Of a stretch of 64,000 bases of DNA, positions 40,353-48,483 are shown piece after piece. Source of the stretch: Chryseobacterium sp. JV274 (GTDB taxonomy: Bacteria > Bacteroidota > Bacteroidia > Flavobacteriales > Weeksellaceae). Position 1 is the first letter of the stretch, and each line of letters begins with the position of its first letter. Both the position numbers and the translations under genes were made by a program. The stretch covers positions 868,001 through 932,000 of the forward strand of contig NZ_LR824569.1 of NCBI RefSeq assembly GCF_903969135.1, read 5' to 3'. The notes under the pieces were generated by a model. That model was not told where the DNA came from and ran no database searches. It saw only the letters and a list, made by a program, of their open reading frames with translations.

Positions 40353-40799
40353 ATGAATATTATTAACAAAATCCTCAACGTCGACGATTATTATTTCGAC
40401 GTGTTTATGTCTATCTCGGAAGCGCTTGCCGGGTTTACTGTAAACGAGTTACAGTCTACAGGTTTGGCAGAAACCTATTACACCTACATTCTCAAAAGCT
40501 TAGATGCCGCTACTTTCGTAGAATTCCTTACTGTATCTAAAAACATTCTTGAAAAACATTCCGGTAAAGATGAATTGAATAAGGCTATTCAATCCGAAAT
40601 TATCTCCAATCCCGGAATGAATGATATTTCCGGAAAAGTGATCACCATGTGGTATCTGGGAACCTGGGAAGGCGCTTATATCAATGATCTTTCTTACAAA
40701 GAAGGTCTTGTCTGGAACCTGATGCATTCTCATCCGCCCGGAGCAAAACAGCCTGGCTACAAATCGTGGAATATAAAACCTGTAAACAGCAACTCATGA
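40353..40799 (+). CDS. FAD-SLDH-type sugar dehydrogenase small subunit
   Basis: A 148-residue protein of the family of small subunits of FAD-dependent sorbitol/fructose dehydrogenases (PF12318). The C-terminal block is diagnostic: VITMWYLGTWEGAYI, SYKEGLVWNLMHSHPPGAKQ, PGYKSWNIKPV. Known family members carry a Tat signal and help export the flavoprotein partner. This one has no signal peptide (MNIINKILNVDDYYFDVFMS), so the complex is predicted to be cytoplasmic. Its stop overlaps the GMC gene by 4 bp, so the two are translationally coupled. Function: probably folding or stability of the GMC partner. Confidence 0.8.
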   Translation: MNIINKILNVDDYYFDVFMSISEALAGFTVNELQSTGLAETYYTYILKSLDAATFVEFLTVSKNILEKHSGKDELNKAIQSEIISNPGMNDISGKVITMWYLGTWEGAYINDLSYKEGLVWNLMHSHPPGAKQPGYKSWNIKPVNSNS

Positions 40800-42874
40800 A
40801 TCCAACAAATAACAAAAAAGATGTGATCATCGTAGGAACCGGGATCGCAGGATCATTAATCGCAAAACTGCTGACTGATCATGTATTTGACGTAACAAAA
40901 GGTAAAATGATCCACCGTGCAGATGCAGGAAAATCGGATAATATCAGGGAAATATCAATCCTTATGTATGAAGCGGGTCTGGAAGCTGGTATTGAACTGG
41001 ATTCCGTATCCTCAATGACCACTTACAATGAGTATATCCGTACTTTTTACAGAGAAGAAGCCAAAGTTCCCAACTCTCCTTATCCGAATTTGAAGCAGGC
41101 ACCTTCTCCAAATGTTCTGGATATGGAGCACATTGTTCAGCCCTTTCCAGATAAAAAAGGATATCTGGTACAATTCGGACCAATGCCGTTCGCAAGTGAT
41201 GCCATCAGAGTGGGAGGCGGAACGACCCTTCACTGGCTGGGAACGACTCCAAGAATGCTTCCGAATGATTTCAAACTTACCGAGAAATATGGTATTACCA
41301 TTCCCCAGCCGAATTCCGATAAGCCAAGTCCGGTTAATTGGCCGATAGATTATGAAGAATTAAGGCCTTATTACGAAATGGCAGAATTTGAAATCGGGGT
41401 TTCCGGAGATGTTTCAAAACAGGAATATCCAATTTTGGAGAATAGGGAACAATATTATGGAGATTATGTATTCCCGATGGAAGAAATTCCGCAAAGTTAT
41501 ATGGATCATAAGATCATTGATGGGCTTAAAGGTACGAGTGTAAAGCTAAGCTCCGGAGAGATTCCTTTGATGATGGTACCATCTCCTCAGGGAAGAAATT
41601 CTATTCCGAATCCAAAATACGGGAAAACAAAGATCATCAAAGCCGAACCAAAAGAATCGGGTTACAAACTGGTTTTGGACAGCTCTGAAAAAGAAGAATA
41701 TAAGGCTCTCGGTTCTGTCTGGAATCCTTATATGGGCGAGCGCTGTGAAGGAAATGCGTCCTGCGTTCCCATCTGTCCGGTTCAGGCTAAATATAATGCT
41801 TTAAAGACCTTGAAAAAGGCATTGTATAAGCTTAATGATAATGAAAACCTTAAGCGTAATCCATACATGCAGATTCAGGCTCAGAGTGTTGTGTACAGAT
41901 TAAGTGTTGACCAGAATGATAAAGAGAAAATTTCCAAAGTTCATCTGAGAAGGTATACTTCAAAGGAAAAAACAGATTTTGTTGAAGAATCTATTGACAC
42001 CTCAGACGCTATTGTGATTCTGGCTGCCAATGCTTTTGAGAATCCAAAAATCCTGCTGAATTCCAAATATACCGTTAATAATGTTGTAAAAACGGCTGCC
42101 AACAGCAGTGACCAGGTGGGAAGAAACCTGATGGATCATATGGTAATGCTTACCTGGGGACTTTTCCCCGAACCGGTTTATCCATACAGAGGTCCTGGTT
42201 CCACCACCAATATCTCGTCTTTCCGTGACGGAAACTTCAGAGGTGAATTTTCTGCATGGATCTCTCCTCTTGACAACTGGGGCTGGGGCTGGCCGGCATT
42301 TTCTCCGGGATCAGATGTTGCCTATTTTATCACCAAGGAGAAGCTTTTCGGAGCAAAATTAAGAGAAGCACTTACGAACAGACTTTCAAAACAGGTTTTA
42401 TTCCACTTCGAGATTGAACAGCTGCCGAATCCAAATAACAGAGTAACCATTGATGATCAGTATCTGGATGTACTTGGAATTCCGCGTCCTGTAATTCATT
42501 ATGAATTAACAGAATATGAAATGAAAGCTATGGAACAGGCAAAAAACGCTTCTGATCAGATGTTCAAAAGATTACATATTAAAGATTTCACATCATACAC
42601 CGCCGAAGACAAAAACTCTGTCATCTACAATGGAGTAAGATATTCCTATAACGGAGCAGGTCATATAGTAGGAACTCACAGAATGGGTTCTACAGCAGAG
42701 GATTCTGTCACCAACAGCTACTGTAAGGCTTGGGACCACCCGAATTTATATATTGTAGGAGCAGGAAACATGACCACTTTGGGAACTTCAAATCCTACTT
42801 TAACATTATCAGCATTCACAATCCGTTCAGTAGAATCTATCCTTGCTGATCTTGAAACTCAACTTAAAAAATAA
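40796..42874 (+). CDS. GMC-family FAD oxidoreductase
   Basis: A 692-residue glucose-methanol-choline oxidoreductase. The N-terminal Rossmann motif is DVIIVGTGIAGSLIAKLL. The FAD/substrate region has AIRVGGGTTLHWLGTTPRM and NWPIDYEELRPYYEMAE. A Cys cluster lies in GERCEGNASCVPICPVQAKY, as in GMC sugar dehydrogenases. The C-terminal catalytic region has GAGHIVGTHRMGSTAEDS, where the catalytic His pair is expected, and AGNMTTLGTSNPTLTLSAF. ATG at 40796 overlaps the small-subunit stop (ATGA). No Tat or Sec signal is present. Second gene of a four-gene operon. Substrate unknown: the partner subunit points to polyols or sugars, while the downstream VioB-like gene points to an unusual oxidative pathway. 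Confidence 0.92.
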   Translation: MNPTNNKKDVIIVGTGIAGSLIAKLLTDHVFDVTKGKMIHRADAGKSDNIREISILMYEAGLEAGIELDSVSSMTTYNEYIRTFYREEAKVPNSPYPNLKQAPSPNVLDMEHIVQPFPDKKGYLVQFGPMPFASDAIRVGGGTTLHWLGTTPRMLPNDFKLTEKYGITIPQPNSDKPSPVNWPIDYEELRPYYEMAEFEIGVSGDVSKQEYPILENREQYYGDYVFPMEEIPQSYMDHKIIDGLKGTSVKLSSGEIPLMMVPSPQGRNSIPNPKYGKTKIIKAEPKESGYKLVLDSSEKEEYKALGSVWNPYMGERCEGNASCVPICPVQAKYNALKTLKKALYKLNDNENLKRNPYMQIQAQSVVYRLSVDQNDKEKISKVHLRRYTSKEKTDFVEESIDTSDAIVILAANAFENPKILLNSKYTVNNVVKTAANSSDQVGRNLMDHMVMLTWGLFPEPVYPYRGPGSTTNISSFRDGNFRGEFSAWISPLDNWGWGWPAFSPGSDVAYFITKEKLFGAKLREALTNRLSKQVLFHFEIEQLPNPNNRVTIDDQYLDVLGIPRPVIHYELTEYEMKAMEQAKNASDQMFKRLHIKDFTSYTAEDKNSVIYNGVRYSYNGAGHIVGTHRMGSTAEDSVTNSYCKAWDHPNLYIVGAGNMTTLGTSNPTLTLSAFTIRSVESILADLETQLKK

Positions 42875-42878
42875 CAAC

Positions 42879-44330
42879 ATGAGACAAAGACTTATCAATA
42901 AAACAGCACAGCCACAGGAAACATTAACAGCAGGAAGAATGGCCGCAAGAAACGCGGTCGCTACAGAAGCCGTTTCATTGCCTTCTCTATTATTTGATTC
43001 AACACTTAGCAAAGAAGACTGGACTGAAGGATTAAAACACCACAGCAAAATATTAACTCATCTTTTACTGAATGATCAGATTGATGATTTTAATGCTTAT
43101 TTAGGTTCTCAGTTCGGTTCAGAAGTGTCTGAATTAAAAAAAGGAGTAAACGAAATTGATTATAAACCCATTTTACAGGACCTTTTACAGACAGCCATTC
43201 TCATTGAGCATTCTACCATTCCGCCTTATCTTACAGCTTTGTATTCTATCAAGGATGGAACTAATGCTTTAGCTTCACAAATCATCCGAAGTGTTGCCGT
43301 AGAAGAAATGCTTCACCTGATCATGGTTTGCAATGTCCTGAATGCAATTGACATTCAACCCTCTGTAAACAAACAGGAGAACTACCCTACTTATCCGATG
43401 AAATTACCCATGAATGTTGATTTCTATATAGGTCTGGAAACATTCTCGAGTAACAGTATTGCCACTTTTATTGCCATTGAAAGCCCAACCAAACCTTTGG
43501 TAAAAGCTCCGAAATATGACCATGTAACAGATTCTTCGGCATTATATTCTCAAAGAGCTTCCGTACAGAATACCAACTTGTGGACTCTTGAAAACATGAA
43601 AGGTTTCATCATGGAAAATGTTCATACTATTGGTGAATATTATGATGTTTTATTCTTCTATATTGTTATTTTCCAAATCATTGCTTATTACAAAGAACAC
43701 GGAACTCTTCCGAAGAATTTCGAAGAATTAAATACGGGAGGAATTTTTACAGGAAAGCCATCCAAACAAATCCGTCCTGAGCAATACTATGGAAGTGGCG
43801 GAAAATTACATTTCGTAGAAGCTCTAGATGGAGTAATTGCTGTTTTTCAGGAAATTAAAGGACAGGGAGAAGGCGCTGACGATTCTATTTTCGATGTTGA
43901 TCCGTCACAATTTGAAGAAGGGATGGAGCTGGCTCATTATTTCAGATTTAAAGAAGTATTCCATGAGCATTTCTATCTCGGTGGAAACTATGAGCCTTTT
44001 ATGGATGAAAACGGAATGATGCCTGTTACTACACCACCAACCGGAAAAGCCCTACCTGTAGAATGGGATGAAGCCTATCCTATGAAGCCTAATCCAAAAG
44101 TGGAAGATTATATTAAGAATAAAGAATTACATGCACAGGGCGTTGAGTTTAATAAAACTTACAGACGTTTATTAGATGCTATACAAAGTGCTGTGGAAGG
44201 AAACCAAAGAGAATTGGAAAAATCCATTATGTACATGTATGCCTTGAAAGAACAGGCTGTCAATCTGATGAAACAACCATTGGATTCACAAAATAATGCA
44301 GGTCCGACTTTCGAATACACTGATTTATAA
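42879..44330 (+). CDS. VioB-type ferritin-like protein (iminophenylpyruvate dimer synthase family)
   Basis: A 483-residue protein with a long ferritin-like domain (PF12902 type) as found in VioB/RebD/StaD. Metal-ligand helices are visible in DLLQTAILIEHSTIPPYLTA and IIRSVAVEEMLHLIMVCNVL (Glu, Glu-x2-His), then YPTYPMKLPMNVDFYIGLET and later YYGSGGKLHFVEALDG and YFRFKEVFHEHFYLGGNYEP. MRQRLINKTAQP at 42879 starts 5 bp after the GMC stop. In violacein and rebeccamycin synthesis these enzymes couple imine intermediates; here no indole-pathway genes are present, so the reaction is unknown. Co-transcribed with GMC and the 508-residue gene. Confidence 0.8.
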   Translation: MRQRLINKTAQPQETLTAGRMAARNAVATEAVSLPSLLFDSTLSKEDWTEGLKHHSKILTHLLLNDQIDDFNAYLGSQFGSEVSELKKGVNEIDYKPILQDLLQTAILIEHSTIPPYLTALYSIKDGTNALASQIIRSVAVEEMLHLIMVCNVLNAIDIQPSVNKQENYPTYPMKLPMNVDFYIGLETFSSNSIATFIAIESPTKPLVKAPKYDHVTDSSALYSQRASVQNTNLWTLENMKGFIMENVHTIGEYYDVLFFYIVIFQIIAYYKEHGTLPKNFEELNTGGIFTGKPSKQIRPEQYYGSGGKLHFVEALDGVIAVFQEIKGQGEGADDSIFDVDPSQFEEGMELAHYFRFKEVFHEHFYLGGNYEPFMDENGMMPVTTPPTGKALPVEWDEAYPMKPNPKVEDYIKNKELHAQGVEFNKTYRRLLDAIQSAVEGNQRELEKSIMYMYALKEQAVNLMKQPLDSQNNAGPTFEYTDL

Positions 44331-44348
44331 CCATAAAAACGATATATC

Positions 44349-45875
44349 ATGCTTAAAAGAAAAAAAGAAAGTCCCAAAGCGGGAGAAGAACTGTTGCTCC
44401 GTAAAATGCCAGGCCAAAATGAAATTAATCTGGCTGAGCTAATGGATGGATATTCAAAACTTCTTATTGATGATCCGGTGAGACCATTCAGAGAAGATAA
44501 CCTTCAAGCCATCGAAAATAGTGTAGATTATGGAATCCTTGCAGCTTTGGATGGTACGTGGGTAAGCTATAATGTTAATTACAATAAAGATATTACAAAA
44601 CCCTCATTAGCAAGCGGTGTGCATACTACCATTATGCCTTCTCCAGGAACCAATTCAGGAACAATTCCCGGAAAATTCGCTTTTGATAGTGAAGAATATA
44701 TTGAGAAACTAACATTTTCAATCGTTCCCGGTGGAGTTCGTAACCGTGGTGGTGCGAGTGAACTTTTCTGTGGAGCTGTTAAATATGAGCAAAGCATAAA
44801 GAGCGTTAACACTGTACAGGGACAAGATGCTTTGAAATACACCCCTATCCACGAAGAAAACGGAATGTATCTATGGCTGAGTGATGTTTATAATCATGCA
44901 GCAACCAAAGAGTCTATTGAAAGAGATCGTGGTATTCATGCTGTTTCAACAGAAGATGCAAAATATGGATATACCGGCGAATACAGAGATGAGCCTTTGC
45001 TAAGGATAACACCAGACGGAGAAGCCAACCCCAAATATATTCTTCAAAGCCAGCTGCAGCCGGGACAGCCTTATTACGAGATTATTCCGGCACAGGAACT
45101 CAAGCCGGGAGCAGGACTTGATGGTCCTTATTTCATCCCGGACTACTCTATTTCCCGAAGTGGCGTTATTCCTCATGGAAGTACCATTACATTATTGGGA
45201 GATATTATTCCTCAAAATAAAGATAATACAACCTTCTATTTAGTGGAAGGTTCTCCTCAATTTCCTTATGGTAAAGAAGCCTGGGAAACGAATCACCTTT
45301 CCATTTCACGTACGATGGGGAATGCAGGAGTAACACCTGAAGACATCATTGATCTTGACAAACCTGCACCGGATTGGGTTCATGAAACCCTTAATGATGA
45401 TAATGATCCGGGGTCAAATAAAATCTACACCCAGAGAATACTCGCAGATGATTTATATCCTTATTCTGTACGACCTGATCTAAGGCTCAGGGATACATTA
45501 AGAGGCCAGAAGGTCAGCAATTATGTACATGTGAGAATGTCTTCCAAAATGAAAACCGGCGCACAGGGAGGTATTTTAAATGTTCCTTTTGTAAACCGTT
45601 TTGTTCCTACTGTTGAAGTGGATATGGATATGTGGATTGAAACCATTATTGAAGATGGGAAAGAGGTTCTTCAGCTGCAATATGAGCAAATTGTATTCTT
45701 CGAATTTGATTTCGGGAATGATGGAGGTACCACAAGCTGGCCTCATATCCAGGTCAATACACTTCGTAAGTTAGCAGACATCCCTGAAGATCAGAGAAAA
45801 GTGATTGAAGAACAGTTCTTCAATACTGGTGAAAATTCCAGTGCAACTTCAGGATGTCCATATCATAAAGGATAG
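44349..45875 (+). CDS. Conserved protein of unknown function in the redox operon, 508 aa
   Basis: I do not recognise the family with confidence. The N-terminal half reads like a beta-barrel with a lipid- or heme-binding look: ILAALDGTWVSYNVNYNKD, TIPGKFAFDSEEYIEKLTFS, NRGGASELFCGAVKYEQSIK, ENGMYLWLSDVYNHAA. The C-terminal half has FLVEG-like strands, AWETNHLSISRTMGNAGV, VPFVNRFVPTVEVDMDMWIE and ends in TSGCPYHKG, a Cys-Pro tail that could bind heme or metal. No signal peptide or membrane helix. It lies 18 bp after the ferritin-like gene and ends at a strong terminator. The lengths of this and the ferritin-like protein add up to about that of VioB/RebD (about 1000), but homology is not shown. 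Confidence 0.75.
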   Translation: MLKRKKESPKAGEELLLRKMPGQNEINLAELMDGYSKLLIDDPVRPFREDNLQAIENSVDYGILAALDGTWVSYNVNYNKDITKPSLASGVHTTIMPSPGTNSGTIPGKFAFDSEEYIEKLTFSIVPGGVRNRGGASELFCGAVKYEQSIKSVNTVQGQDALKYTPIHEENGMYLWLSDVYNHAATKESIERDRGIHAVSTEDAKYGYTGEYRDEPLLRITPDGEANPKYILQSQLQPGQPYYEIIPAQELKPGAGLDGPYFIPDYSISRSGVIPHGSTITLLGDIIPQNKDNTTFYLVEGSPQFPYGKEAWETNHLSISRTMGNAGVTPEDIIDLDKPAPDWVHETLNDDNDPGSNKIYTQRILADDLYPYSVRPDLRLRDTLRGQKVSNYVHVRMSSKMKTGAQGGILNVPFVNRFVPTVEVDMDMWIETIIEDGKEVLQLQYEQIVFFEFDFGNDGGTTSWPHIQVNTLRKLADIPEDQRKVIEEQFFNTGENSSATSGCPYHKG

Positions 45876-45942: not shown

Positions 45943-46581
45943 TTAAAGATTCTCGTAGGTTTGGTCCACCATGAAGGATACTGCTTTTTTGATCTTTTCA
46001 CGTCCTTCAGGTGTATTGGTGTCTATCCCACAGAAAATACTGCCATTCAGAGAGGCAAACATATTGAGGTAATAAAGCCCTGAAACCATAATCGCCATGA
46101 TAGAGCGATAGGTATCCATTTTATCTTTGAAACGGGATTCCATCAATAATTTGAAGATATATTCTCCGTTTTCCTCCTGGGTATCAATTAGTTTTTTTAA
46201 TGATTTTCTGGGTTCAGAAATAGTCCACAACAATAGTTTTTGCGCCTCCTTGTTGGTGTATACGTGATCAAATTGTGAAAGCAGCATGTGCTCGATAAAT
46301 TCTCTTCCTCCATCTTCCAGGTTCGGTTTCATCTTTTCTACTTCCTCACTCGTTACTTTCACCCAAAAGTCCTGTGTACGGACATATTCGTCCATCAGAC
46401 CATCCATACCGCCAAAATAAGTATAGATCATTTTCTTATCTACCCCGGCAGTTGCAGCGATATCGTTGATCTTCAATCCTGCATGTCCTTTCGTTTTCAG
46501 AATTTTTCCAACTGCATCTAAAAATTTTTTCTTACTGCGTTCTTTGTTTCTAATACTCCCTGATGCTGACTTTCTTTCCAT
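45943..46581 (-). CDS. TetR-family regulator 1 of the small-RNA array
   Basis: A 212-residue TetR repressor-type protein. The N-terminal HTH is GHAGLKINDIAATAGVDKKM followed by IYTYFGGMDGLMDEY. The ligand domain includes EAQKLLLWTISEPRKSLKKL and VSGLYYLNMFASLNGSIFCG. It is a close paralogue of the protein at 47304: same length, no gaps, roughly three quarters identical by eye, and an identical AATAGVDKKMIYTYFGG recognition-helix segment. MERKSASGSIRN at 46581 is the start, preceded by a noncanonical TATATTG stretch. The operator dyad 46626-46647 lies 45 bp upstream and is shared with small RNA A, so autoregulation is likely. Confidence 0.92.
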   Translation of the reverse strand: MERKSASGSIRNKERSKKKFLDAVGKILKTKGHAGLKINDIAATAGVDKKMIYTYFGGMDGLMDEYVRTQDFWVKVTSEEVEKMKPNLEDGGREFIEHMLLSQFDHVYTNKEAQKLLLWTISEPRKSLKKLIDTQEENGEYIFKLLMESRFKDKMDTYRSIMAIMVSGLYYLNMFASLNGSIFCGIDTNTPEGREKIKKAVSFMVDQTYENL

Positions 46582-46625
46582 GACTAAACATTCAATATAC
46601 AAGTTTAAGAAAATTTTTTATTATT

Positions 46626-46670
46626 TTAGACACCTTCGAGTGTCTAATTTCAACTATTTATATATATTTG
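46626..46670 (+). promoter_or_regulatory. Operator and promoter of RNA A
   Basis: The dyad AGACACC-TTCG-AGTGTCT (46628-46645, flanked by TTA and TAA) is followed after 17 bp by the promoter box TATATTTG (46663-46670). The other three copies have a 7-bp gap; the extra 10 bp equals one DNA turn, keeping the operator on the same face. It also lies in the tetR1 upstream region. Confidence 0.8.
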
Positions 46671-46675
46671 CAAAA

Positions 46676-46832
46676 ACTAAAACCATCCATTATATAAAAA
46701 CACTATCGAGATTGAAAAATAAAACTATTCAGATTGTATCGTTAGTTCCCTCAGTTTAAAATGTTTCGAACATAAACGACTGGGGTAAAACACAACCCAA
46801 CAGCATCATTTTATTTAATGGTGCTGTTTTAT
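46676..46832 (+). ncRNA. TetR-controlled small RNA A
   Basis: Predicted transcript of about 157 nt. It starts a few bases after the promoter box with ACTAAAACCATC. The body shares TTGAAAAATAA, CAGATTGTATCGTTAGTTCC and GTTTCGAACA-type blocks with the other copies, and the conserved GGGGTAAAACAC precedes the terminator. An internal hairpin is possible: CCTCAGT (46749-46755) with ACTGGGG (46779-46785), capped by ATGTT-TCG-AACAT. The terminator is AACAGCATCATT / AATGGTGCTGTT (46799-46810 / 46817-46828) plus T tract. The longest ATG ORF is four codons (MFRT). A 15-codon TTG ORF (46712-46759) is possible. Boundaries are predicted, not measured. Confidence 0.75.
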
Positions 46833-47058
46833 TCTCAGAAAGCTGATATGATATTAAATAAAATACTTTTCAATAGAAATTTTAACTTATTCTCTTCAAT
46901 TACTGAAATGTAAATCTTATTTTAAAAAGATTTTCTGTCTTTTCTTATATGATCAAATTGGAATATCAGCATCATTCAAAAGAATAACTTCTTATTATTA
47001 TAAAATTAAAATACTGCAATTCAGCACATTAAATAAAATAAAGAAAATTTTCACTATT

Positions 47059-47093
47059 TTAAACACTTTATAGTGTCTTATTTTATATATTTG
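47059..47093 (+). promoter_or_regulatory. Operator and promoter of RNA B
   Basis: AAACACT-TTAT-AGTGTCT (47061-47078), then a 7-bp gap and TATATTTG (47086-47093). The left half-site has one change (G to A) from the consensus. The dyad covers the place of the -33 element. Confidence 0.8.
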
Positions 47094-47098
47094 TACAA

Positions 47099-47266
47099 AC
47101 TAAAACCATCTATATATTTTAAAACACTTTTAGGTTGAAAAATAAGACAATTCAGACTGTTTTATTTAGGTTCCCTTACTTTAAGACAATTTCGAACACG
47201 AAACACTAAGGTAGAAACACAACAACACAATTGACCATTAGAAATTTCTAATGGTTTTGTTTTTTA
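47099..47266 (+). ncRNA. TetR-controlled small RNA B
   Basis: Predicted transcript of about 168 nt. It begins ACTAAAACCATC like A, shares TTGAAAAATAAGACAATTCAG, TTTCGAACACGAAACACTAA and GGTAGAAACAC, and ends at a 22-bp perfect palindromic terminator (47234-47255, half ACCATTAGAAA) with a T-rich run to 47265. Internal pairing CCTTA (47074-47078) with TAAGG (47207-47211) replaces the A-copy pair at the equivalent place. No ATG ORF. A 24-codon TTG frame (47135-47209) exists whose first codons match copy A with mostly third-position changes. It lies between A and the 3' end of tetR2. Confidence 0.75.
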
Positions 47267-47303
47267 CCGGAATTTAATTCCTGAGATTATAACACACCGA
47301 ATA

Positions 47304-47942
47304 TTACAGATTCTCATAAGTCTGATTCAATAAAAAGGAGATTGCTTTTTTGATTTTTTCCCGTCCGCTGGAAGTATCCACGTCTATTCCACAGAAGATA
47401 CTGCCATTTATGGCAGAGTACATATTCAGATAATAAAGTCCGGAAACCAGGATAGCCATTATCGAACGTAATTCTTCACTATTTTCTTTAAAATAAGGAT
47501 CCATCAGCAGTTTAAAAATATATTCACCATTTTCTTCTTGGGTGTCGGTCAGTTTTCTTAGTGATTTTCTGGATTCCGAGATGCGCCATAGAAGTAATTT
47601 CTGCGCTTCTTTGCTTTTGTAAACATAATCAAATTGTGACAGAAGCATTTCTTCCATGAAAGATTTTCCCCCGTCATCCAATTTTGGTTTTATCTTTTCT
47701 ATTTCATCAATGGTTACTTTACTCCAGTAGTCCTGAGACCGGATATATTCATCTATAAGCCCATCTACCCCGCCAAAATAAGTATAGATCATCTTTTTGT
47801 CTACCCCGGCGGTAGCAGCAATATCAGTCACTTTCAAAGCAGTATGTCCTTTTGTTCTCAGTATCTTTCCTACTGCGTCCAAAAACTTTTTTTTACTGCG
47901 TTCCTTGTTCCGGATACTACCTGCTGCTGACTTTCTTTCCAT
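47304..47942 (-). CDS. TetR-family regulator 2 of the small-RNA array
   Basis: Paralogue of the regulator at 45943, also 212 residues, with start MERKSAAGSIRN at 47942. The HTH is GHTALKVTDIAATAGVDKKM, IYTYFGGVDGLIDEY; the recognition helix is identical to TetR1, so both should bind the same dyad. The ligand domain differs most around residues 150-165 (DPYFKENSEELRS), which may separate ligand preference. Upstream, AAACTTGTATGATTG resembles the corresponding part of tetR1 (AAACTTGTATATTG), showing that the promoter was duplicated too. The operator of RNA C lies 43 bp upstream, head to head. Confidence 0.92.
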   Translation of the reverse strand: MERKSAAGSIRNKERSKKKFLDAVGKILRTKGHTALKVTDIAATAGVDKKMIYTYFGGVDGLIDEYIRSQDYWSKVTIDEIEKIKPKLDDGGKSFMEEMLLSQFDYVYKSKEAQKLLLWRISESRKSLRKLTDTQEENGEYIFKLLMDPYFKENSEELRSIMAILVSGLYYLNMYSAINGSIFCGIDVDTSSGREKIKKAISFLLNQTYENL

Positions 47943-47984
47943 GGTAAACTTTTCAATCATACAAGTTTATGAATTTTTTTTTAC

Positions 47985-48020
47985 TTTAGACACTTTTTAG
48001 TGTCTAAATGTGTATATTTG
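47985..48020 (+). promoter_or_regulatory. Operator and promoter of RNA C
   Basis: The best-preserved copy: TTTAGACACT-TTTT-AGTGTCTAAA, perfect 10-bp arms (47985-48008; core 47988-48005), a 7-bp gap from the core, then TATATTTG (48013-48020). It lies between tetR2 and RNA C. Confidence 0.85.
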
Positions 48021-48025
48021 CATAA

Positions 48026-48178
48026 ACTAATAACCATTTTATATAAACGAACGATCAAAGTTGTGAGGTTGAGTGAGATCAGATTGTACCGTTAGTTCTC
48101 TCAGTTTAAATGTTTTTAACATTTCATGGCTGAGGTAAAACATTACTCGCAGCACCATTTTTATGGTGCTGTTTTTAT
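48026..48178 (+). ncRNA. TetR-controlled small RNA C
   Basis: Predicted transcript of about 152 nt starting near AACTAATAACCATTTTATAT. The body shares CAGATTGTACCGTTAGTTC and CTCAGTTTAAATGTTT with copy A, then GAGGTAAAACAT. A two-part hairpin forms from CTCAG (48100-48104) with CTGAG (48130-48134), and AAATGTT with AACATTT. The terminator is CAGCACCAT / ATGGTGCTG (48150-48158 / 48163-48171) plus T5. The largest ATG ORF is MFLTFHG. The TTG frame found in A, B and D is only eight codons here. Boundaries are predicted. Confidence 0.75.
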
Positions 48179-48316
48179 TTAACAGACGTATTTTCTTTCA
48201 TTTAAAAGTTATAAATACTCATTCTGTTGATTTTTTTAATTTTATTTTCACCTTAAAACACCCTATATCACAGGCTTTTATCAATTTAATTAAAATAATT
48301 TTATTTTTTTGAAATT

Positions 48317-48351
48317 TTAGACACTTAGAAGTGTCTTATTTTGTATATTTG
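48317..48351 (+). promoter_or_regulatory. Operator and promoter of RNA D
   Basis: AGACACT-TAGA-AGTGTCT (48319-48336, perfect 7-bp arms), a 7-bp gap, then TATATTTG (48344-48351). Confidence 0.82.
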
Positions 48352-48356
48352 CTTCA

Positions 48357-48483
48357 AACTAATAACCATTTTACATAGAAGCACTATTGAGTTGAGAAAA
48401 ATTAAAAAGTTTCGAAAACAAGCAACTAAGGTAAAAACACTAAATGCAACAGTATCATTAGCTCTTTAATGATACTGTTTTTA
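48357..48483 (+). ncRNA. TetR-controlled small RNA D
   Basis: Predicted transcript of about 126 nt, the shortest copy. It begins AACTAATAACCATTTTACAT like C, lacks the about 40-nt middle block of A-C, and retains CACTATTGAGTTGAGAAAAA, GTTTCGAAAACAAGC and CTAAGGTAAAAACAC. Internal pair AGTTG (48390-48394) with CAACT (48423-48427). The terminator is a perfect 13-bp stem, AACAGTATCATTA / TAATGATACTGTT (48448-48460 / 48467-48479) and T5. A 25-codon TTG frame (48392-48469) runs into the terminator stem, which makes it a doubtful coding region. Confidence 0.72.

Follow-up and report, generated by a model that had tools for sequence, protein, structure and literature searches.

A TetR-linked array of putative non-coding RNAs in Chryseobacterium with 5′ ends complementary to a conserved sRNA-like element

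The small RNAs (sRNAs) named Qrr, which operate with LuxR/HapR in Vibrio, have sigma54/LuxO-P-controlled promoters, and the LhrC family of Listeria reportedly comprises homologous sRNAs within one genome; to our knowledge, the latter are neither TetR-controlled nor sponges of an sRNA. In V. harveyi, the TetR-family protein LuxT represses only qrr1 of the five qrr genes (PMC8043402). RosA from Bacillus subtilis is a CcpA-repressed sponge RNA of RoxS, for which pairing and titration have been shown experimentally (PMC8216469). The paralogous, multicopy sRNAs FopS and GibS from Bacteroides consist of a single-stranded 5′ part and a terminator and pair near start codons; FopS has been deposited in Rfam (PMC11697453). 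Here, we describe a locus from Chryseobacterium sp. JV274 in which two tetR genes are interleaved with four putative non-coding RNA genes (units 1 to 4), the 5′ ends of which are complementary to a conserved sRNA-like element (termed S) found elsewhere in the genome. The complete stretch of 64,000 nucleotides (nt) which was analyzed is referred to as the window (G000:C1:868001-932000), and the genome from which it is taken, a single contig of 5.2 Mb, as the window genome.

The units, as putative stand-alone RNAs predicted to pair with a conserved sRNA and to be repressed by a transcription factor, resemble RosA (PMC8216469). RosA differs because its repressor is a global regulator encoded elsewhere, whereas the units form arrays with adjacent tetR genes, belong to Bacteroidota, and match a different sRNA; also, pairing and titration are experimental for RosA, whereas the units are known here from sequence alone. 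The Qrr system likewise has multicopy sRNAs and a TetR-family repressor for one of them (LuxT on qrr1; PMC8043402). The accessible sections of that paper describe no sponge role, and in our case TetR is encoded divergently and next to the units and has a link to each of them. FopS and GibS have a layout similar to that of S; they differ in that the units and S score below the Rfam thresholds and in that the part of PMC11697453 available to us describes neither TetR nor a decoy array. Among open-licence PMC papers, neither a description of the units nor the combination of a private repressor with a tandem decoy array was found. A preliminary description of the locus had not recognized multi-copy small RNAs with dedicated, duplicated TetR repressors from the literature. 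This has to be narrowed, as parts of the arrangement are known from LuxT acting on qrr1 and from RosA (PMC8043402; PMC8216469).

We consider it moderately probable that TetR represses arrays of target-mimic sponge RNAs and that release of TetR by a ligand leads to titration of S. Three things would come together in the locus which our searches did not find linked, namely a repressor of its own, an array of decoy RNAs amplified in number, and an sRNA family which occurs throughout the genus and is not in Rfam. The connection of the units to TetR was analyzed in 43 loci fetched by their TetR together with 13 kb of the window (44 TetR-bearing stretches). Unit promoters were located by the box TATATTTG, which we take to be a Bacteroidota −7 type promoter element, followed by ACTAA..CCA; a dyad was not required. 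Nevertheless, all 99 distinct unit promoters have a dyad of the type AGACAC-N6-GTGTCT within 50 nt, compared to 29 of 5000 random windows. The same palindromic dyad lies within 130 nt of the start of 73 of the 74 tetR genes, in the divergent promoter of the gene itself, and is predicted to be bound by TetR; the exception is on a Pedobacter contig. The distance from the start of the dyad to the box is 24–27 nt in 83 promoters (offset 25 in 73) and 33–35 nt in 16 (offset 35 in 14). There are 55 different N6 spacers, and their outer bases are complementary in 84 of the 99 cases, as would be the case for a symmetric DNA operator. On the tetR side, a conserved TAAACTTG is found by reading about 37 nt from the dyad, so that binding of a single TetR could silence both promoters. 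The orthologous TetRs of Paenimyroides (L096) and Chishuiella (L093) retain the dyad, and protein genes follow there instead of units (named by reading, an aspartyl-protease-like and serine-hydrolase-like pair and an MFS-like gene), which argues that the dyad belongs to TetR rather than to the RNA. The link between dyad and TetR is thus supported by comparison, and binding of TetR to the dyad is what we infer from it. That the units are TetR-linked, as had been claimed, is borne out by these counts.

The 43 named loci comprise 40 from Chryseobacterium and three from other genera, and each of the 40 Chryseobacterium loci contains at least one dyad-box unit. In nine relatives, the number of dyad-box units in the array ranges from 1 to 6 and that of tetR genes from 1 to 3. 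The preliminary description would have been at odds with an absence of units next to tetR orthologues; they are present beside tetR in the Chryseobacterium relatives. Judged by its recurrence beside this TetR subfamily in the related genomes examined, the arrangement is more than chance. The closest named locus is that of C. panacisoli, with a TetR identity of 99%. For a count across the genus, an RNA model (R1) was built from 36 short units, those from the window included; it has only 8 base pairs. At E ≤ 0.01, it matches in 50 of 148 Chryseobacterium genomes, with 1 to 7 matches per genome, and all matches are on contigs which also carry TetR. The TetR subfamily (64–100% identity) occurs in the same 50 genomes, as compared by hand among the matches listed, the boundary of 64% having been set after the matches were seen. 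In the other 98 genomes, the model has no match at E ≤ 0.01, and no TetR relative exceeds 56% identity (the value in G166; among the matches listed). Weak orphan copies of the units could escape, because 19 first-look candidates were scored per genome and filters were stricter. The commonest other TetR paralogue has about 41–52% identity, and no dyad-box unit was found beside it in the loci fetched. In the two loci which were read (L006, L047), this second paralogue has an alpha-oxoamine-synthase-like gene immediately upstream of it and a DNA polymerase III gamma/tau-like gene downstream (both named by reading).

The element S was found by searching the window genome for the complement of the unit 5′ block. 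In addition to the four units, 11 places were obtained: four S copies, one partial copy, two starts of messenger RNAs (mRNAs), and four unclassified sites. The four S copies of the window genome are at G000:C1:948440, 1574441, 2183446, and 5172011 (L110/L149, L111/L150, L114/L151, and L118/L152, respectively); copies from other genomes are L119-L148. The S core TTGAGTTTTCATGGTTATTAGTTTTTA is found at up to three mismatches in 148 of 148 Chryseobacterium genomes, and in none with the reversed pattern (among the matches listed). In an order-wide sample, it matches in 30 of 196 genomes, of which 16 are Chryseobacterium and 12 belong to four sibling genera of the family, while two are weak 3-mismatch hits elsewhere. 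Each sibling genus has a copy without mismatch, so that the 27-nt core is unchanged in five genera. S is composed of a small hairpin, a 22-nt linker (UUUUCAUGGUUAUUAGUUUUUA), and a GC-rich terminator, and its length is estimated at roughly 70–80 nt. The sequence of the terminator stem differs between copies, with pairing retained (by reading). Read as its reverse complement, the linker resembles a translation start, UAAAAACUAAUAACCAUGAAAA.

Promoters and neighbors of S were evaluated for 34 copies (one each from 30 genomes and the four from the window genome) and for those 30 loci plus four others, respectively. A TGGCA[CT]..TT element is present in 27 of the 34 copies at −42 to −45 from GAGTTTT, compared to 23 of 5000 random windows. 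It resembles a sigma54 −24/−12 promoter (the −12 half is an imperfect match), and S is probably a sigma54-dependent sRNA. A sigma54-like promoter is found on the qrr sRNAs themselves in Vibrio, whereas here it is on the partner S and not on the units. A neighboring ndk or rsgA gene was found in 17 of 21 loci with copies classed as type A (one of them, L120, reads more like type B) and in 0 of 12 with type B, which points to stable gene loci and not to an insertion element. In Rfam, no family is above threshold over S, anti-hemB over one copy having 20.1 bits versus 49.5. S is apparently an undescribed, very conserved sRNA-like family, the existence and conservation of which are supported by comparison. 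It may well act as an sRNA with the linker as seed, and S deserves attention in its own right, independent of the role of the units.

The S linker has its complement in the least variable part of the units, the 5′-terminal block ACUAA-(N)-CCA. In units 3 and 4, the block AACTAATAACCAT (48025..48037 and 48357..48369, both on the plus strand) is an exact complement of part of the linker over 13 nt. In units 1 and 2, pairing of AACTAAAACCAT requires one bulged base (46675..46686 and 47098..47109, respectively; both on the plus strand). Pairing was computed for 111 units (110 distinct); L093, L096, and one spurious antisense match were left out, as they were from the counts of start codons and from the test of the 3′ block given below. 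The first 24 nt of the 110 distinct units have a mean of −12.6 kcal/mol with the linker, and windows from unit nt 12 on have −3.7 to −6.1 kcal/mol. When the linker was shuffled (300 mononucleotide shuffles, 60 units), the mean was −4.6 kcal/mol (standard deviation 1.5) and 0 of 300 were as good. The pattern ACUAA-N0-5-CCA is kept in 102 of the 110 distinct units, the middle varying by one to five nt. UG follows the 5′ block in only one of 77 distinct 5′ ends, so that the start codon which would complete the mimicry is missing; an ATG occurs within the first 28 nt of one of 85 distinct units. For comparison, 246 background sequences were taken which follow other TAnnTTTG boxes in the window genome, those holding ACTAATAACCAT being left out. 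Against these, units 3 and 4 both take the top rank, with unit 1 in third and unit 2 in ninth place. The complementarity between units and S is conserved according to this comparison, the pairing as such being a computational prediction.

We propose the following sequence of events. TetR dimers would bind the AGACAC-N6-GTGTCT dyads just upstream of the unit promoter boxes and would repress their own genes and the units. A ligand would release TetR, upon which the units would be transcribed as short, terminated non-coding RNAs. The unit 5′ end, ACUAA-(N)-ACCAU, would be a copy of an mRNA start site lacking the AUG and would base-pair with the S linker. Titration of S would then free those mRNAs which have their start regions blocked by S. 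Candidates start with CUAA-(N)-ACCAUGAAA, and three of them code for GG-leader bacteriocin-like peptides. TetR binding, the ligand, transcription, the mRNA targets, and the direction (sponge rather than target) are what we infer here, the direction because S is present in every genome examined and the units are not. The number of decoys (up to seven matches per genome) would matter because S itself is multicopy. We are evenly divided on a broader proposal, namely that TetR and target-mimic genes multiply together and that the arrays set the decoy dose for a sigma54-type S which guards the start codons of secreted-peptide and surface/polysaccharide genes. If true, this would be a testable post-transcriptional circuit for Chryseobacterium and, via S, for at least four sibling genera. 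It would also place a sponge system with a dedicated repressor in Bacteroidota, would illustrate how the dosage of an RNA sponge is tuned in nature by copy number and evolves by tandem amplification, and would provide a handle on the timing of bacteriocin-like leader peptide production.

Candidate mRNAs were searched in the window genome as CTAA-N0-3-ACCATGAAA, which occurs outside S at seven places (backwards control: 1). Three are GG-leader peptide genes (L157, L163, L200). The others comprise a gene for an RHS-like secreted protein, a lipoprotein-like gene, and a site between the cistrons of a pectate-lyase-like gene and the gene which follows it, the seventh being unclear (names from reading, except for the leaders). 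The intercistronic site (L193:1500-1518) is exactly complementary to S over 19 nt. Against NCBIfam leader_Chryseo (cut-off 23.5 bits), two of the three leader genes score high enough, while the third has 22.0 bits. In the window genome, 35 GG-leader bacteriocin-like genes (NF047798) are over the cut-off among 57 matches, and 30 of the 57 loci were fetched (L156-L185). The GG-leader mRNAs pair better with S than all starts (p = 5e-5; 24 of 30 leaders) and better than other genes starting with ATGAAA (p = 0.0016; n = 29 and 40, using 29 of the 30 leaders). Two of the GG-leader mRNAs have the same AAAACTAAAACCAT leader. Several GG-leader genes have in common an upstream CCGAAAAGCATATAGAGTAGGA-like stretch, which overlaps with a match to Rfam DUF805b in L115.

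A number of observations weigh against the sponge reading. The 5′ block is missing in eight of the 110 units, some of them degenerate, and the 102 units having it are not independent cases, since the units are related to each other. The pairing is complementarity without covariation, because S hardly varies. Among the 246 background sequences, 17 reach −10 kcal/mol, and the 31 which follow TATATTTG average −6.95 kcal/mol. For the first 25 nt of units 1 to 4, the unpaired probability amounts to 0.98, 0.72, 0.44, and 0.57, and for the linker in two S copies to 0.72 and 0.56. In the window genome, only two of the four S copies (L151, L152) have a −24/−12-like promoter. The 3′ block of the units, GGUAAAAACAC, is only suggestive as a second S site, since 12 of 300 shuffled linkers do as well, and the long unit forms (see below) suggest that the RNA does more than pair. 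The advantage of the GG leaders fails when only sequence upstream of the ATG is used (p = 0.09); because the leader class pairs better, but not from its upstream part alone, the S target set is a lead and not a result. Units and S alike have so far been seen only as DNA sequence. Finally, the search which found S was itself unenriched (11 places outside the units, four of them S, versus 7 in the reversed control).

This last count would also fit a different explanation, that the units are TetR-repressed sRNAs acting on other mRNAs and that the match to S is a by-product of a 5′ leader sequence common in Chryseobacterium. The ranks of units 1 and 2 (only 3 and 9 of 247 after TAnnTTTG boxes) and the identical AAAACTAAAACCAT leader on two GG-leader mRNAs point the same way. 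However, none of the shuffled linkers pairs with the units equally well, every one of the 246 background sequences ranks behind units 3 and 4, mRNA-like CTAA-N0-3-ACCATGAAA is restricted to seven places outside S, and AUG is avoided in the units, so that we regard a mere by-product as quite unlikely. Reversal of the direction seems to us unlikely as well, to a lesser degree. The units would then be effectors with targets of their own, using the 3′ block or the long body, and the core sRNA S would silence them via the 5′ block. S is present in 148 genomes (among the matches listed) and the units in only 50, so that S must act without units elsewhere, and conservation extends to the 3′ block and the long forms, neither of which has a known partner. 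A dedicated repressor and 1–7 unit matches per genome are nevertheless better explained by titration of a multicopy sRNA; moreover, the 5′ block is the most constant part of an otherwise variable RNA, and the units have no reading frame which S could block (by reading).

Two further explanations dispute that the units are RNA genes of this kind. Very small proteins might be encoded, and unit 4 indeed has a 42-codon frame with a TTG start in the open reading frame list. This frame is not kept in orthologues or paralogues, which have 1- and 2-nt indels and no shared start (by reading), and ATG is nearly absent near the unit 5′ end, which makes a coding function very improbable. An origin of the units as mobile or repetitive DNA, for instance as a miniature inverted-repeat element, would be in line with tandem copies in variable number (1 to 7 matches per genome). 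It is hardly credible, as there is no copy at E ≤ 0.01 off TetR contigs in the 148 genomes and the aligned units keep promoter, operator, and terminator in order. The units look like TetR-controlled non-coding RNA genes. In alignments of the orthologues of each unit, indels of 1 and 2 nt leave no common frame (by reading, without a formal coding test), in agreement with the initial view that there is no convincing open reading frame.

In the window, the array is flanked on one side by a GMC oxidoreductase gene, a gene for a ferritin-like protein, and an FMP-type peroxidase gene and on the other by pgl-zwf-gnd (named from reading translations). The former three (40353-45875) converge on the TetR array here and in many named loci. 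Both genes for TetR/AcrR-family regulators are on the minus strand, tetR1 at 45943..46581 and tetR2 at 47304..47942, and each codes for 212 amino acids from the conserved ATG. They score 31.2 and 26.0 bits, respectively, against Pfam TetR_N (cut-off 24). Since the TetR protein alignment (L068 and L095 left out) has MERKS as the conserved start, tetR1 most likely begins with the ATG at 46581 instead of the TTG at 46602. The two proteins had been called near-identical, which is not the case (75–76% identity). The four plus-strand units were all located, each with dyad, box, body, and terminator as in the common architecture reported initially. Their placement between the two tetR genes holds for units 1 and 2, while units 3 and 4 are beyond tetR2.

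Operator dyad 1 (46628..46645; AGACAC-N6-GTGTCT) is between the divergent tetR1 and unit 1, dyad 2 (47061..47078) has one mismatch, dyad 3 (47988..48005) is between the divergent tetR2 and unit 3, and dyad 4 is at 48319..48336. In the window, dyad matches at up to two mismatches number 4 versus 1.12 expected, and 2 of 100 shuffles reach 4. The TATATTTG boxes are at 46663..46670, 47086..47093, 48013..48020, and 48344..48351, all on the plus strand. In unit 1, the dyad is 10 nt farther from the box than in units 2–4, about one helical turn, and the wider spacing is found again in relatives. The putative plus-strand RNAs extend over 46671..46831, 47094..47264, 48021..48176, and 48353..48482, with RNA model matches of 142.6, 131.7, 115.1, and 116.3 bits, all four being among the model-building sequences. 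Terminators (plus strand) were found by the terminator scan for units 1 to 3 (46799..46828, 47233..47256, and 48149..48172); for unit 2, the scan has the hairpin on the minus strand too, where it faces the 3′ end of tetR2. The terminator of unit 4 (48448..48480) was seen in the fold and is outside the terminator-scan list. On both strands of 4 kb, there are 10 terminator-like hairpins versus 1.7 expected, including those after units 1–3. With terminators included, the four RNAs fold better than their dinucleotide shuffles, with z values of −3.9, −2.8, −2.7, and −2.3.

The unit bodies are 130–170 nt long, and the four units with flanks align at a mean column identity of 70%. A CCU..AGG hairpin is present in units 1–3; unit 4 is a minimal form without it. 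This hairpin precedes the 3′ block and shows compensatory pairs among unit 3 orthologues. Of 121 units in all, 80 have the 3′ motif and 45 have both motifs, and the latter provided 33 distinct arm pairs. The arms of these pairs have −5.25 kcal/mol compared to −3.31 (standard deviation 0.33) for swapped arms, with 0 of 500 as good; the pattern used stopped one G short of the helix end, and two or more of the pairs (L080, L086) were mis-anchored. The 3′ block GGUAAAAACAC, shortly before the terminator, is as conserved as the 5′ block; in unit 4, it reads GGTAAAAACAC (48430..48440, plus strand). Besides units 2 and 4, the genome has 19 sites matching it at up to two mismatches versus 47 for the reversed control; two of these have one mismatch and are in sense inside what read as open frames. 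Some minimal units have little beyond the 5′ block, UUUCGAAC, CUAAGGUAAAAACAC, and the terminator. In loci with one TetR and one unit, the unit extends over 294–591 nt from dyad to terminator in 12 of 14 cases, with the same end blocks, the other two (L085, L089) having about 196–198 nt; one long unit each is also found in the multi-TetR loci L071, L072, L073, and L095. The short units look like internally shortened copies, judged without a tree. Long unit RNAs (L079-L084, L086, L071, L095; up to 591 nt from the dyad) have extra internal blocks in common between species, such as GAAAATGTGGTTGTACCCGTAACATAAAGACAATTTCGA in those of L079-L084.

A match to an already described element would have spoken against a new system. 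No Rfam family (FopS/GibS or any other) reached threshold in the whole window, and at E ≤ 5 the array has only a sub-threshold, chance-like SNORA16 match over unit 1 (E 0.16). Feedback of the units on tetR mRNA was considered because of a similarity between the 5′ block and the tetR1 leader complement; it found no support, the leaders ranking 13 to 47 of 53 start regions by a crude energy measure. A wider TetR regulon was rejected as well, since the genome-wide search for the dyad at up to one mismatch gave 7 sites versus 9 in the control. Outside the array, two of the sites are in coding sequence and one is upstream of small open reading frames. In L099 (1609-2821), four consecutive small open reading frames have a one-mismatch TetR dyad upstream of a TATATTTG box, and the two of them which were tested are class I lanthipeptide leaders (NF038158).

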